From Candidatus Nitrosoglobus terrae (GTDB lineage Bacteria; Pseudomonadota; Gammaproteobacteria; Nitrosococcales; Nitrosococcaceae): DNA of 64,000 nt. Location: NCBI RefSeq assembly GCF_002356115.1, contig NZ_AP014836.1, positions 1,437,001 to 1,501,000 on the forward strand, read 5' to 3'. Under the pieces are notes generated by a model, which saw only the letters and a list, made by a program, of their open reading frames with translations, did no database searches and had not been told where the DNA came from. Position numbers and translations under genes: made by a program. Positions 12,475 through 19,543 of this stretch are shown here, piece after piece; the stretch's first letter is position 1; every line of letters starts with the position of its first letter.

Positions 12475-13926
12475 ATGACCGATCCAAAAAAACAAACACT
12501 AGCGGACATTGGTATTATCGGCCTTGGCGTTATGGGTGCTAATTTAGGCCTCAATATTGCCGAACATGGATTTACAGTCATTGGCTATGATCGTGATGCT
12601 ACTAAAGGAAATCTTTTAACTAGCGCAGCAGAGGAGCAACTCTCAGATCCTGAACGGGTTAGAGCCTACAGCGATCTAGCTCAATTTATGGCAGCCTTAC
12701 GTCGGCCACGGGCTATTATCACCTTGGTTCCTGCTGGTGCCCCAGTAGATGCGGTGATCGACGCTCTTTCTCCTTATCTTGAACAAGGTGATGTCCTAAT
12801 TGATGGCGGGAACTCCTATTTTCATGATACTGATCGCCGAATTGAAGCACTGGCAAGAAAAAATATCCATTTTATGGGAATGGGGGTTTCTGGTGGTGAG
12901 AGCGGCGCTCGACACGGGCCGAGTTTAATGCCCGGGGGTGATACTGAAGCTTGGAAACGCCTTCAGCCTTTATTAGAAGCCGCTGCAGCTAAGGTAAAAG
13001 ACGAACCCTGTGTGGGCTGGCTTGGGAAAAAATCCGCAGGCCACTACGTAAAAATGGTTCACAACGGCATTGAATACGGGTTAATGCAGCTTATTACAGA
13101 AAGCTACGATCTCATGTATCGTGGTTTGGGCTTTAGTCCAGAGAAAATGCACCAAATTTACAAAGATTGGGCTGAAGGTCCCATGGGTGGGTTTCTGCTA
13201 GAAATCACTGCAGATATTATGATTCAAAAAGATCCTCTAGGGGACGGCTACCTATTGGGTAAAATCCTTGACACTGCCCACCAAAAAGGTACAGGATTAT
13301 GGACTTCCCAAGAAAGCCTGATCCTAGCCCCTACCCCTACCATTGATGTGGCCGTTACTCAGCGAGTACTTTCAGATGAAAAAGCCCAGCGCAAGCAGGC
13401 TAGCCAGCAATTAGAGGGCCCTCGAAACCCCATTTCCCTTGATAGAGAAACGCCTGATGCTTTCCTTACGCAATTAGGCAATGCACTCCATGGGGCGATG
13501 CTACTGACTTACGCACAAGGCATGCATTTATTACAAGTAGCTAGCCATCACTATAACTATGGGCTTAATTTAGAGACTGTCGCTACTATCTGGCGTGGAG
13601 GCTGTATTATTCGTTCTCAACTGCTACAAAATTTGCGTGATGCCTACCGAAGCAAGCCGAATCTAATCAACCCTATTCTTGATACTCATTATGGCACTGC
13701 TATTACCCATACTCACACTAGTCTTCGTAAGATAGTCTGCACTGCTGCCACTTGGGGGATTCCTGCCCCTGGATTCATGAGTGCGCTTGGCTACTATGAT
13801 ACTTACCGTAGCGCCCAGCTACCTGCCAATCTACTGCAGGCACAGCGGGACTATTTTGGTGCCCATACCTTTGAACGCACTGACCGAGAAGGGAGTTTTC
13901 ATATACATTGGGATTCAGCGGAGTAA
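12475..13926 (+). CDS. gnd: 6-phosphogluconate dehydrogenase, decarboxylating
   Basis: This 483-residue enzyme oxidises and decarboxylates 6-phosphogluconate to ribulose 5-phosphate. It has the N-terminal Rossmann fingerprint (GLGVMGANLG), the substrate-binding signature VSGGESGARHGPSLMPGG, and the catalytic helix GHYVKMVHNGIEYG. The long all-helical C-terminal domain is complete. Length and residues fit the classical NADP-linked dimeric enzyme. zwf follows after six bases, so the two oxidative pentose-phosphate enzymes form an operon in reverse pathway order. 6-Phosphogluconolactonase is absent from the neighbourhood. Confidence 0.95.
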   Translation: MTDPKKQTLADIGIIGLGVMGANLGLNIAEHGFTVIGYDRDATKGNLLTSAAEEQLSDPERVRAYSDLAQFMAALRRPRAIITLVPAGAPVDAVIDALSPYLEQGDVLIDGGNSYFHDTDRRIEALARKNIHFMGMGVSGGESGARHGPSLMPGGDTEAWKRLQPLLEAAAAKVKDEPCVGWLGKKSAGHYVKMVHNGIEYGLMQLITESYDLMYRGLGFSPEKMHQIYKDWAEGPMGGFLLEITADIMIQKDPLGDGYLLGKILDTAHQKGTGLWTSQESLILAPTPTIDVAVTQRVLSDEKAQRKQASQQLEGPRNPISLDRETPDAFLTQLGNALHGAMLLTYAQGMHLLQVASHHYNYGLNLETVATIWRGGCIIRSQLLQNLRDAYRSKPNLINPILDTHYGTAITHTHTSLRKIVCTAATWGIPAPGFMSALGYYDTYRSAQLPANLLQAQRDYFGAHTFERTDREGSFHIHWDSAE

Positions 13927-13932
13927 TTAGCC

Positions 13933-15450
13933 ATGGATCCTAATCAACAGCTACTACACCAGCCTACTGTTCTTGTTCTTTTTGGTGCTGGAGGTGATCT
14001 TTCTTGGCGGCTCATCGTCCCAGCAATATTTGATCTTTATGTCAACAAGCACTTACCCGAAAAATTTATGCTTATTGGCGTCGACCGCCAGGATTACAAG
14101 CAGCAATCCCTAGCTGATCACTATCGGGAAGCTATCAAACAATACTCCCGCTATGGCATCCCCAATGAGCAAACTTGGCAATCTTTTGTTCAATTGATTC
14201 ATTACTACCAAGGAGATATCACTGATCAAAACTATTATACCCAGCTAGCAGAAATACTAGCAGAACAGGATAGGGCTTGGGATCAGCTGGCTGAAAAAGT
14301 ATTTTATCTCGCCACCCCTCCCTTCTTGTTTGCCAGCATCGCTAAAGCCCTAGGCGTGGCAGGACTGGGTAAAGAGCGATCGGAAACCAGAATTATTTTA
14401 GAAAAACCTCTAGGCCGAGATTTAGTCACTTTTCACGAAATCAATGAGACCCTAAGTGCCCATTTCCACGAACAGCAAATCTATCGGATTGACCATTTCC
14501 TTGGTAAAGAGACTGTGCAAAATATCCTTGCGCTACGCTTTGCCAACCCCATTTTTGAGCCTATCTGGAACCAAGGCTACATTGACAGCATCGTTATTAC
14601 TGTAGCTGAAACCCTAGGGGTAGAACATCGCGCTAGCTACTATGAGCGGGCTGGAACGCTGCGGGATATGGTACAAAATCACTTACTTCAGCTATTATTT
14701 TTAGTGGCTATGGAGCCACCTGTTACCTTTGATGCTGATGATGTACGCAATCGTAAAATGGACGTCATGCACGCCTTGCGGCCTATTCTGGAAAATGAAG
14801 TACAACGCTATGCTGCTCGAGGTCAATACGGACCAGGATGGGTTGAAGGAATTAAAGTACTTGGCTATCGTGAAGAGGAAGGAGTTTCTCCTGATTCCAA
14901 TATCGAAACCTATTGTGCCCTAGAGCTACACGTAGATAATTGGCGCTGGCAAGGCGTACCCTTCTATCTACGTACGGGTAAACGCATGCCGATGAAAGTC
15001 TCAGAGATTTCTATTCGATTCCGAGATGTTCCCCATCAGGCTTTTCCAGCTTCAGCTGGGCTTAATGCCCAACCCGCCCGGCTGATTATCAGGTTGCAGC
15101 CCGAGGAAGGAATCGTCCTTAAGTTCCTAGCTAAACAGCCAGGCCAGCATTTAATCTTGCGTCCGGTAGAAATGCGTTTTAGCTATAAGGAGACTTTCAG
15201 CCTTCCCTCGCCTACTGCCTATGAAACCTTACTTTGGGATATTATGCGAGGCGATGCAACCTTATTCACTCGGGCTGACCAGTTAGAGGCCGCTTGGCGT
15301 TTATTAATGCCGGTACTAGATGTTTGGGAATCCAACCCCGGTGTTAATTTCCCCAATTACAGCGCTGGGTCTTGGGGGCCAGATTCAGCTGGGATTTTAA
15401 TTACTCGTAGTGGCAGAAGCTGGCTTACTCCTACCCTACATGATAAATAG
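13933..15450 (+). CDS. zwf: Glucose-6-phosphate 1-dehydrogenase
   Basis: This 505-residue enzyme oxidises glucose 6-phosphate to 6-phosphogluconolactone. The nucleotide-binding loop reads LFGAGGDLSWR, a variant of the usual GA(S/T)GDL. The catalytic signature RIDHFLGKE is intact, as are the EKPLGRD and YLRTGKRMP blocks. It is translationally close to gnd, and the pair supplies NADPH and pentose phosphates. No opcA is nearby. Confidence 0.95.
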   Translation: MDPNQQLLHQPTVLVLFGAGGDLSWRLIVPAIFDLYVNKHLPEKFMLIGVDRQDYKQQSLADHYREAIKQYSRYGIPNEQTWQSFVQLIHYYQGDITDQNYYTQLAEILAEQDRAWDQLAEKVFYLATPPFLFASIAKALGVAGLGKERSETRIILEKPLGRDLVTFHEINETLSAHFHEQQIYRIDHFLGKETVQNILALRFANPIFEPIWNQGYIDSIVITVAETLGVEHRASYYERAGTLRDMVQNHLLQLLFLVAMEPPVTFDADDVRNRKMDVMHALRPILENEVQRYAARGQYGPGWVEGIKVLGYREEEGVSPDSNIETYCALELHVDNWRWQGVPFYLRTGKRMPMKVSEISIRFRDVPHQAFPASAGLNAQPARLIIRLQPEEGIVLKFLAKQPGQHLILRPVEMRFSYKETFSLPSPTAYETLLWDIMRGDATLFTRADQLEAAWRLLMPVLDVWESNPGVNFPNYSAGSWGPDSAGILITRSGRSWLTPTLHDK

Positions 15451-16851: not shown

Positions 16852-17166
16852 TTACTTTCGATGCTGTTCCCAAGCTTTTTGCCTCTCAGCGTAATCTTCA
16901 GCCTTTACCCAATATCCGCCTTTCTCCGGTACCCCTACATAGCGTATCTGCTGCGCCTGATCCACACAGTGGGCAGGTATCTGATCTCTAATTAACAAAT
17001 CCTTACCTTCCCAATAAGTTAAGGTAGCATTCAGGGTATCCGCATCGCAATGGCTATCTTTAAGCTTGATAGGTGTGGGGCTAGTAGAAATGAAGCTTCT
17101 CACCGCCACCCCCAAAACGATGATAGCGATAATACTACCAACTATTATAGAAAGCTTAATATTCAA
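16852..17166 (-). CDS. Small membrane-anchored hypothetical protein
   Basis: A 104-residue protein with one N-terminal transmembrane helix or uncleaved signal (IIVGSIIAIIVLGVAV) and an extracytoplasmic part holding two cysteines (SHC, AHC) that could form a disulfide. The C-terminus is basic and helical (YAERQKAWEQHRK). No family is recognised. It is a lone gene in the same direction as the GH13 gene, 93 bases upstream of it. Confidence 0.55.
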   Translation of the reverse strand: MNIKLSIIVGSIIAIIVLGVAVRSFISTSPTPIKLKDSHCDADTLNATLTYWEGKDLLIRDQIPAHCVDQAQQIRYVGVPEKGGYWVKAEDYAERQKAWEQHRK

Positions 17167-17427
17167 ATTATCCTCAGTCCAATTAGTTAACTTCGCTTAT
17201 AACATCGATAATTTAGCATCTAACTTAAGTTTAGGTCTATTTTACGATATTTTCATCCCCTCTTCATCAAATCTAGGCTTTGGCTCACTTTAATTTTTTT
17301 ATTTTTAAAGGATATTTAAAAGAGTAACTGTTTATCTACAAACACAAGAAACATTTTTTATGGCATCTGGATATGCTTCAGCTACCAAATAGTGCTTGCT
17401 CATGTGTGTTTGAATTACATCAAGGTT
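17167..17427. other. Spacer before the TnpB remnant
   Basis: This AT-rich stretch of about 260 bases holds the upstream region of the 104-residue ORF and possibly the decayed left part of the IS element. I see no intact ORF, RNA gene or clear inverted repeat in it. Confidence 0.4.
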
Positions 17428-17689
17428 ATGAAAGCCTACAAACAGCGATTTTACCCCGTCCTTCTTACCCAATATCGGCAGCTAGTCAAGGAATTCAGTA
17501 CTCACCATTACGTCTGGAATTGAGCCTTACCTACTCGTAGGGATACTTACAAAGAGCATATAGAGAAGCTTAATTATAAGGCCGATCTATCAACCTTTTG
17601 AAGAAGGTTTCAGATAGATAGGGTAAAAGTGATCTATCAACTATAAAAAAGATTTAAGAAAAACCATTACTCGCTTTTTCGATGACAAC
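17428..17689 (+). pseudogene. Degraded TnpB (IS200/IS605 OrfB) N-terminal remnant
   Basis: From the ATG at 17428 the frame reads MKAYKQRFYP...HHYVWN and then meets a TGA at 17521. Read-through continues ALPTRRDTYKEHIEKLNYK and another stop at 17599. In shifted frames it goes on with LLKKVSDR and DLRKTITRFFDDN up to the end of the KaiC-like gene. This is the usual N-terminal pattern of TnpB proteins (MKAYKFRLYP..., VWNWAL, LNY, and a segment ending AFKNFF). Several stops and shifts show it is dead. The RuvC part is gone and no TnpA or clear element ends are seen. Confidence 0.8.
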
Positions 17690-19114
17690 CTAAAAACTGA
17701 GTGTCCCCTGTTTTACTACGGAATCCCCAATTGATAAAGTCGTTGGACCAATTTCATAAATATATATTCGGGTATCAAATGGGCTGAGCCTTTTTTTCAA
17801 TACCCCTAATGATTTTTTAAGCTCCCCCTCAATTTCTACATAGCGCAGAAATATCACATTATCTGATAGATAACTAATACCGCTTTCAGAAATTCTAAAT
17901 TGCTCAGATAGAGACTCAATCTCATTAATTAATATAACAGATAGCCCTCGGCGTGATAGATTTTTGACAAAAGCATGTAAGGCTATCTTAGCCTTTTCGT
18001 TTCGATTAAGAGTAAGCTCAAGGCCAGCAACACTGTCAAGTATGATCAGTTCTACGCCTTCCTCCTCCACTTTCTGGTTAACCCACATAGCAAACTCGTC
18101 GGCAAGACAGTGAGAAGGTTCAATCTGCTCGATACTCACTCGGCCATTGTTAAAAGGTTCTTTCAAATTTATTTTTAAGGAACTAGCACGATGTAACAAT
18201 GAGCTGATCTCCTCCTCAAATAAATAAATGACCACTTTTCGTCCATGGGCTACTGCTCGAGCAGCAAAGAGTGAAGCAAGCGTAGATTTACCCACCCCAG
18301 AGGGTCCCGTAATCAATGAAATTGTTCCCGCTTCAAGACCGCCATAAAGCATCTTATCTAGTTTTTCAACTCCGGTACTCCAACGCCAACGCTCTTCCTC
18401 AGCAAGATTAGCTTTAGGGGGTAAAAGGCGAGGAAAAACCTCTAAGCCATGGCTATCAATACGCATTTGATGTGCGCCATGTAAAAAATCAGAGCCGCGA
18501 AATTTTGATACCTGCAAGAAAGCACCTGCTGTTCCAGTATCTAATATAATCACCCCATCAGTGAGGGACTGAAGATCCTCATCTGGAATCTCAGTACTGA
18601 TCTCTGAGGTAAGTAGCACAGTTATATTTTGCTTCCGAAAATAATAGAACAGGCATAAAACCAGCTTTCGATATTGGTAGATATCGGTTGCTAGAAACCG
18701 TAGCTGGGTTATAGAATCAATAAAGATCTGAACAGGGGCTAACCGCTTTACTGTCTCGATAATTTGCTTTAAAAGTGGATTTTGTTTTCCATTGCTCTCA
18801 GCGAAGAAAGCATTGCTATCTTGTTGGTGAGTAAAAAAATATTTATCAAGCGTTAAATTCAAAAATTGAATATTGGATACATCGATACCCATCAATTCGG
18901 CATTGTGCTTAAGCTGATCTTCGGACTCTTGAAAACCAATAAAAAGCGTACGCTCCTGTTTGCCCACAGCGGAAAGAAAATGTAAGCCTAGCGTTGTTTT
19001 TCCCTGACCTGAACCACCGCGCACCAAATAAACGGACTGCTGAATAAAACCACCAAGGAGAATACGATCCAGCCCTAAAACCCCAGTAGAGATTCGTTTA
19101 GCAGTATCATTCAT
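17690..19114 (-). CDS. KaiC-like protein with two RecA-type ATPase domains
   Basis: The 474-residue protein carries two tandem KaiC/RadA-type domains. Walker A motifs are GGSGQGKTT (33-41) and GPSGVGKST (about 266-274), each followed by a Walker B-like stretch (VQIFIDSI, VELIILDSV). The KaiC-type FRGSDFLHGAHQMRI follows domain 1. The CI catalytic Glu pair reads QE (GFQES); the CII pair is EE (FEEE). Where KaiC has the phosphosites Ser431-Thr432, this protein reads ISYLSD, so Ser is kept and Thr becomes Tyr. There is no kaiA or kaiB nearby. A signalling or timing ATPase of the KaiC-like group is likely. It shares an operon with the DUF3293 gene. Confidence 0.8.
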   Translation of the reverse strand: MNDTAKRISTGVLGLDRILLGGFIQQSVYLVRGGSGQGKTTLGLHFLSAVGKQERTLFIGFQESEDQLKHNAELMGIDVSNIQFLNLTLDKYFFTHQQDSNAFFAESNGKQNPLLKQIIETVKRLAPVQIFIDSITQLRFLATDIYQYRKLVLCLFYYFRKQNITVLLTSEISTEIPDEDLQSLTDGVIILDTGTAGAFLQVSKFRGSDFLHGAHQMRIDSHGLEVFPRLLPPKANLAEEERWRWSTGVEKLDKMLYGGLEAGTISLITGPSGVGKSTLASLFAARAVAHGRKVVIYLFEEEISSLLHRASSLKINLKEPFNNGRVSIEQIEPSHCLADEFAMWVNQKVEEEGVELIILDSVAGLELTLNRNEKAKIALHAFVKNLSRRGLSVILINEIESLSEQFRISESGISYLSDNVIFLRYVEIEGELKKSLGVLKKRLSPFDTRIYIYEIGPTTLSIGDSVVKQGTLSF

Positions 19115-19132
19115 CTTTTTCTCCTTATTTTT

Positions 19133-19543
19133 TTAAATTTTTCCTAAATGCACCCGTGAGCGGAAACAGCCTACAGGTATTTGCGTCCGTCGATGATCAC
19201 AAAAACTAACGTGTAATATATCGCCCACTACATAATAAATAGCCTCTTGGTAAAATTCTTGCCCCAGATTACAAGCAGTATCAAAACTTAGAGCCACTGC
19301 CCAACCCGGCTCCGAGTGGCCAGTCACCGGTGAGTAACCGATCAAGCGCTGCAGCCAAGCTTTTTGCTGCTTTAACTTTACGGCTAACTTCCTATCTGCT
19401 GCTTCATTCTTTGCGCTACTCCATACTTCTCCAGTAGTGGCATAAGCAGTAATAATCGCAAAAGCACGGGGCCAATCTTCCCAAGAAAGCAGGCGCCGAA
19501 AATGAGTTTCAAAATAGACAGGGTTTATTGAAATCATGGGCAT
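19133..19543 (-). CDS. DUF3293-family protein
   Basis: This 136-residue protein matches the DUF3293 pattern: an FAIITAY start of the domain, a central ENxxxxRKL-type helix (KNEAADRKLAVKL), SEPGWAV, and a C-terminal beta stretch. The role of the family is unknown. It lies 18 bases upstream of the KaiC-like gene on the same strand, so the two are probably co-transcribed. A functional link is only suggested by that order. Confidence 0.7.
   Translation of the reverse strand: MPMISINPVYFETHFRRLLSWEDWPRAFAIITAYATTGEVWSSAKNEAADRKLAVKLKQQKAWLQRLIGYSPVTGHSEPGWAVALSFDTACNLGQEFYQEAIYYVVGDILHVSFCDHRRTQIPVGCFRSRVHLGKI

Follow-up and report, generated by a model that had tools for sequence, protein, structure and literature searches.

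A Ser-Tyr type KaiC homologue without its usual receiver and GGDEF-EAL neighbours in a gammaproteobacterial genome

The window, which is the whole stretch of 64,000 nucleotides analyzed here, carries on its reverse strand a kaiC-like gene (17690-19114) that encodes a protein of 474 aa with the CI and CII RecA/KaiC ATPase domains and is of the Ser-Tyr type. The protein is a member of a widespread, already described group of Ser-Tyr KaiC proteins, and its usual signalling neighbours are missing in this genome. We consider it likely that the protein constitutes an orphaned, still constrained KaiC-type switch outside the clock, whereby the output surface of its CI domain has been released or re-used. 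The analysis removes two weak leads, namely the DUF3293 protein as a KaiC partner and the Ser-Tyr site as an oddity, and offers a better one: four gammaproteobacterial genomes have genes for KaiC, an atypical receiver, and GGDEF-EAL as a set, and a haloarchaeon has a related pair of KaiC and receiver.

The kaiC open reading frame is real and not a chance frame, since its differences from the orthologue of genome G001 amount over 473 codons to 0.23, 0.165, and 0.556 at codon positions 1, 2, and 3, respectively. The Pfam model PF06745 matches the product in two stretches with 231.4 bits, which places it among the double-domain members of the family. Walker A motifs are found as GGSGQGKTT (residues 33-41) and GPSGVGKST (residues 270-278), the Glu pair of CI reads FQE (Gln62-Glu63), and that of CII reads FEE. 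In the alignment to clock KaiC chains, the ISYL stretch (Ser414-Tyr415) lies opposite ISTI at the place of S431-T432, and Ser409 lies opposite the Thr of ITDS at the place of T426. The domain architecture, both Walker A motifs, the CII Glu pair, Ser-Tyr, and Gln-Glu are thus all as the preliminary description of this DNA had given them. KaiC chains are also the best solved relatives (8zn5 at E 1e-39), and the two RecA-like domains, the Walker motifs, and the CII Glu pair are shared with the cyanobacterial clock KaiC (PDB 1u9i, 519 aa). However, clock KaiC has a Ser-Thr site and the partners kaiA and kaiB, whereas the window protein has Ser414-Tyr415 and scores 143.1 bits with the clock-KaiC model TIGR02655, far below the cut-off of 546.25. 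That kaiB is missing from the neighbourhood had been noted before and extends to the whole genome of 2,018,309 bases, in which PF07689 gave no match; in a control with 14 genomes, this model matched in six, including S. elongatus, and exceeded its cut-off in one. Of the earlier suggestion of a switch outside the known clock that is paired with DUF3293, the place outside the clock is supported and the protein is probably a signalling ATPase, whereas DUF3293 as a partner is not supported. The remaining PF06745 matches in the genome reach at most 40.1 bits per stretch, or 68.2 bits for two stretches in a frame of 469 aa. Since the latter frame can be taken as a RadA/Sms-type protein, the window kaiC is probably the sole KaiC-type gene of the genome.

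The Ser-Tyr site and the Gln-Glu pair had both been regarded as special, but both are present in the four nearest orthologues. The comparison comprised 21 KaiC-like proteins, namely the window protein, one each from G001, G004, G240, G374, G296, G314, G199, G071, G205, G358, and G334, four further copies from G004, and five plasmid proteins; locus L014, a weak match of the window KaiC (E 1e-5) in a 342-aa frame, was left out. The plasmid proteins derive from four records hand-chosen among the matches listed (25 of 274 records), so that the following counts describe a small, hand-taken set. Ser-Tyr occurs in 17 of the 21 proteins, and the exceptions are Thr-Tyr in Acaryochloris, Ser-Asn in one G004 copy, and Ser-Ser and Ser-Thr in the two G004 copies near kaiB, which rules out the site as an oddity. 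All five proteins of the window clade begin the CI pair with Gln and the other proteins with Glu, Gly, Ser, or Cys, while the second residue is invariably Glu among the 21; being common to the four nearest orthologues found, Gln-Glu is no oddity either. In genome G004, the KaiC-like genes number at least five (L019, L058, L059, L060, and L061), of which one is of the operon type, two have no kaiB beside them, and two are near kaiB. The Ser-Tyr profile of the Nitrosococcus KaiC NOC_1328 has been in print since 2011, and passages of PMC3164672 present this protein as an exception within a third (“black”) KaiC group, the members of which have for the most part retained a single site or neither. 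For kaiC genes of the third group, a receiver gene is frequently found behind the kaiC gene, or histidine kinase or GGDEF/EAL genes are located nearby (PMC3164672). Ser-Tyr also appears among kaiC genes that precede a histidine kinase gene, according to the legend of Figure S6 of that paper, and a passage of PMC5520375 gives tyrosine as the second site in some KaiC3 proteins. In the passages of PMC3941300 that concern haloarchaeal kaiC homologues, nothing on a Ser-Tyr site was found.

Matches of the window KaiC at E 1e-20 or better were obtained in three of 59 genomes of relatives, which are its own, G001, and G004, and the latter two proteins, each with 67% identity, are its closest orthologues. 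The gene is therewith patchy, occurring in three of the six genomes of the family. We take this family to be the Nitrosococcaceae, G001 to be probably Nitrosococcus oceani, and the window genome to belong to a Nitrosoglobus-like species. The G001 gene, which has the QE pair and ISYL, would then be NOC_1328, the Ser-Tyr KaiC of N. oceani. In a maximum-likelihood tree of the 21 proteins, those of the window, G001, and G004 form a clade (100/100), which joins G240 and G374 (100/100); within the trio, the window protein and that of G004 pair with weak support (91/72), and the composition of the window KaiC was flagged by the tree program as deviating from that of the alignment. By orthology of its KaiC in these groups of three and five, the window protein belongs to a group characterized by a common gene set, since in all four nearest orthologues found (G001, G004, G240, and G374) the gene order is KaiC (Ser-Tyr), atypical stand-alone receiver, and GGDEF-EAL (L019:6177-9814; L020:8522-12184; L049:4881-8495; L050:3424-7033). 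In G001 and G004, the next gene after kaiC encodes 123 or 141 aa and the one thereafter about 592 aa, whereby Pfam assigns the small product to the receivers (cut-off 30.2; 32.0 and 30.9 bits) and the large one to GGDEF-EAL. The receivers of G240 and G374 were recognized by their similarity of 41-48% to those of G001 and G004; the Pfam receiver model gave no match for that of G240 and 22.9 bits, below the cut-off, for that of G374. Residues with established roles in receivers are the active-site Asp, a Lys, and an acidic pair. In the five receivers aligned, including that of Haladaptatus, Asp and Lys are invariant and the N-terminal acidic pair (for which see a passage of PMC12632262) is missing, so that the receivers of the gene set are atypical. 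The GGDEF-EAL proteins of G001 and G004 lack a GGDEF motif and contain EALVR, NVT, DDFGKG, LKID, and AEGIE; an ELTET stretch can be read in them as well. Judged by these motifs, they may be active c-di-GMP phosphodiesterases with a dead cyclase domain, and the three genes represent a candidate for a KaiC-controlled c-di-GMP phosphodiesterase module. Beyond the three genes, G001 and G004 have no neighbour in common within stretches of 18 kb. A literature search for KaiC-like proteins, c-di-GMP, and ATPase together found no report, and the c-di-GMP role of the intact gene set is a more interesting question than the CI surface of the orphan KaiC.

Signalling neighbours also occur with more distant KaiC genes. 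These adjoin GAF-GGDEF-EAL genes in G314 and G199 (Pfam) and in G296 (BLAST similarity), and a histidine kinase with a receiver in G205, G358, and one G004 copy (Pfam) as well as in Sphingobium (annotation). The latter arrangement is a second context that is likewise described in PMC3164672. The proteins of G205, G358, and Sphingobium resemble the window group in their Ser-Tyr site and in having a signalling gene behind kaiC, but this neighbour is a hybrid histidine kinase, and they are located on a separate branch of the tree with 31-34% identity. Three haloarchaeal KaiC-like proteins, annotated as “ATPase domain-containing” or gvpD, have the ISYL site and about 40% identity to the window protein; their CI pair is EE and they keep a CI loop motif (see below), whereas the window protein has QE and has lost the motif. 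One Halorussus KaiC gene adjoins a PAS histidine kinase, and the KaiC gene of Haladaptatus salinisoli precedes that of a related stand-alone receiver (24.2 bits, below the Pfam cut-off), which hints at a KaiC-receiver pair common to haloarchaea and bacteria. Directly behind KaiC, no signalling gene was recognized in G334, at the G004 copy L058, and at the other Halorussus gene, so that such a neighbour is not a universal rule. On the H. salinisoli plasmid (L065:4995-6825), the KaiC-like gene is overlapped by the receiver gene, the product of which is 23% identical to the gammaproteobacterial one.

In the position that the receiver and GGDEF-EAL genes occupy in the orthologues, the window has an A+T-rich stretch of 523 bases with 34.2% G+C downstream of kaiC (17167-17689, reverse strand), and pieces of neither gene were found within the window (best E 0.49). 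A search for the GGDEF-EAL partner in eight genomes gave a match that starts at residue 39 or earlier in exactly four of them, which are G001, G004, G240, and G374. A full-length partner of this kind was not found in the window genome, the two EAL-bearing proteins of which (frame lengths 1506 and 996 aa) match from residues 126 and 165 with 35% and 25% identity. A stand-alone receiver of about 123 aa was not found in the genome either, where all five profile matches at E up to 1 are located in frames of 220-1506 aa. From G001, where both partner genes follow KaiC and DUF3293 is absent, the window genome thus differs by the missing partner matches and by the loss of CI loop residues. Since the set is common to four genomes, a loss here is likelier than a gain of the partners elsewhere, and we infer that the absence of both genes reflects a loss. 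It could be that an unlinked protein now fills the role of the receiver or of the EAL protein, as two EAL proteins are still present in the genome. The Ser-Tyr KaiC has a common descent with the bacterial orthologues of the family, the nearest of which head the receiver and GGDEF-EAL set. As a presumed double-ring hexamer, KaiC would bind and hydrolyze ATP and perhaps undergo (de)phosphorylation in CII near Ser414/Tyr415 in order to switch its conformation, and its CI ring would dock the receiver/EAL output, whereby the state of KaiC would set c-di-GMP breakdown. In the window lineage, both output genes would have been lost, the ATPase core and CII kept under normal constraint, and the CI docking surface left to drift or re-used. 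DUF3293 may have been brought upstream by a rearrangement, with co-transcription being possible and a functional partnership improbable.

The window kaiC is under purifying selection. With G240 as outgroup, kaiC has 62 unique changes in the window and 23 in G001, compared to 68 and 33 for pheT (p 0.43), and with G374 as outgroup the relative rate of kaiC against pheT gave p 0.20. As the relative rate is not significantly different from that of pheT, nothing points to a speed-up beyond that of the genome itself, and an acceleration of kaiC of its own was ruled out. This bears on the idea that KaiC has become functionless after the loss of its partners and is a decaying relic on its way out, which we regard as unlikely. 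A relic would fit the partner genes that were not found, the patchy presence in three of six family genomes, and the CI loop motif, which is lost in the window KaiC alone among 19 proteins not near kaiB; against it, 474 codons are open, the Walker motifs, Glu63, and CII are intact, the changes are strongly biased to the third codon position, and the rate is not above that of pheT. For the orphaned but constrained switch that we prefer, the position of the changes is informative. The four operon-bearing orthologues agree in 200 columns, of which 31 are altered in the window KaiC, with 23 of 114 in CI versus 8 of 86 in CII, a modest contrast (p 0.048). In pheT, which served as the one control gene, 33 of 321 conserved columns are altered; CI is above this level (p 0.009), CII is not (p 1.0), and over its full length KaiC does not exceed pheT significantly (p 0.099). 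The altered columns are clustered (p 0.007, compared to p 0.13 for pheT), a run of 20 conserved columns containing ten of them. Two patches were delimited in CI, the limits of both being drawn after the data were seen. Patch 1 (codons 97-114; 18773-18826, reverse strand) has 6 of 10 conserved columns altered and has lost the motif [DE][VIM]E, whereby one residue is inserted, so that the column counts of this patch depend on the alignment; in patch 2 (codons 149-170; 18605-18670, reverse strand), 9 of 15 conserved columns are altered. In the alignment, patch 1 is located opposite the docking loop for KaiB and SasA (B-loop) of clock KaiC, the exact residues of which are presumed here. According to a passage of PMC6378743, the B-loop of clock KaiC binds KaiB and SasA. 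The motif [DE][VIM]E, a feature noticed in this comparison and not a published criterion, is missing from the CI loop of the window KaiC, whereas all 18 remaining proteins encoded away from kaiB have it; from the two KaiC proteins near kaiB, one shows the pattern somewhere in the stretch and the other does not. Paired frameshifts as a cause of the odd CI stretch (residues 89-120) were ruled out, because the other two frames do not contain the lost motif. With its two altered CI patches, the partnerless orthologue amounts to a natural experiment and hints at the docking site of the output.

A timing or stress switch outside the known clock, hourglass-like and acting via unlinked partners such as a histidine kinase, seems improbable to us, whereby this reading overlaps with the preferred one and the probabilities of the readings do not sum to one. 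It would agree with the frequent location of related KaiC genes next to histidine kinases or receivers, here and in PMC3164672, and passages of that paper count Ser-Tyr as two phosphorylatable residues and call an hourglass role of a two-site KaiC without KaiB debatable. However, the genome gave no kaiB match, the usual partners are missing, and in the passages of the literature seen no timing measurement for a Ser-Tyr KaiC was found.

The DUF3293 gene (PF11697; 19133-19543, reverse strand; 136 aa, 41.7 bits, cut-off 25) is located on the same strand as kaiC, 18 bases upstream of it, as the preliminary description had reported. The gap (19115-19132, reverse strand) holds a Shine-Dalgarno-like AAGGAGA immediately 5′ of the kaiC ATG, so that KaiC has its own ribosome site. 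It is plausible that both genes are part of one transcript. Between 16700 and 19900, promoter-like sites number five (7.7 expected from shuffles) and terminator-like sites also five (2.9 expected, sd 1.7), and an Rfam scan gave no match. DUF3293 had been put forward as a possible partner of KaiC, but its co-occurrence is at chance level. Neither G001 nor G004, both with KaiC, has a DUF3293 gene, and G002 has one, directly behind gnd and zwf, without such a KaiC. Within the order, the DUF3293 protein was found in six of 63 genomes (one match with an internal stop) and KaiC in three of 59, with both present in the window genome only; the Pfam model is less sensitive here than the protein query and missed G007. 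In a sample of 370 genomes of the class, DUF3293 (Pfam) occurs in 34, KaiC (E 1e-60) in ten, and both in two, namely the window genome and G071, where the genes are on different contigs. Fisher's test yielded p 0.23 with and 0.57 without the window's own genome, and the window genome alone among the 370 has a linked pair. No KaiC gene was present in 30 DUF3293 loci (from 34 matches; 1700-3222 bases), where tblastn gave just two matches of 13 and 20 residues (E 0.58 and 0.77). A conserved KaiC partner was therefore ruled out by the unlinked, chance-level occurrence across order and class, and the DUF3293 gene is probably an incidental neighbour. Missing linkage in other genomes is one of the two observations that the preliminary description had itself named as speaking against its proposal. 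The window DUF3293 protein had no match in plasmid records at E 1e-5, a full-text literature search for DUF3293 found nothing, and its single-sequence structure model has a mean pLDDT of 47.

A partner swap confined to this lineage, in which KaiC was re-wired to DUF3293 after the receiver/EAL loss and the CI changes are an adaptation to the new partner, is quite unlikely in our view. The common strand, the 18-base gap, the ribosome site of kaiC, the intactness of both genes, and the clustered CI changes, which among five orthologues are confined to the window lineage, would be in agreement with it. It is contradicted by DUF3293 genes without this KaiC in five other genomes of the order and in 32 of the 34 DUF3293-bearing genomes of the class sample (with KaiC counted at E 1e-60), by the position beside zwf in G002, by the 30 loci without KaiC, and by the fact that no second genome with a linked pair was found. 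Very unlikely is also its fullest form, in which the receiver/c-di-GMP output was lost, the CI docking surface was rebuilt, and KaiC now works with the DUF3293 protein, which, if true, would provide the first role for DUF3293.

Between gnd/zwf and DUF3293, the window contains an amylase-like gene, a TrbM-like gene, and KaiC. The small TrbM-like gene (16852-17166, reverse strand) is located between the amylase-like gene and KaiC and resembles the conjugal transfer protein TrbM only weakly; it scores 48.7 bits against a cut-off of 259, and 20 bits against a cut-off of 21 with Pfam. The order gnd-zwf (12475-15450 in the window) is found likewise in G002 (L021:4698-8158).
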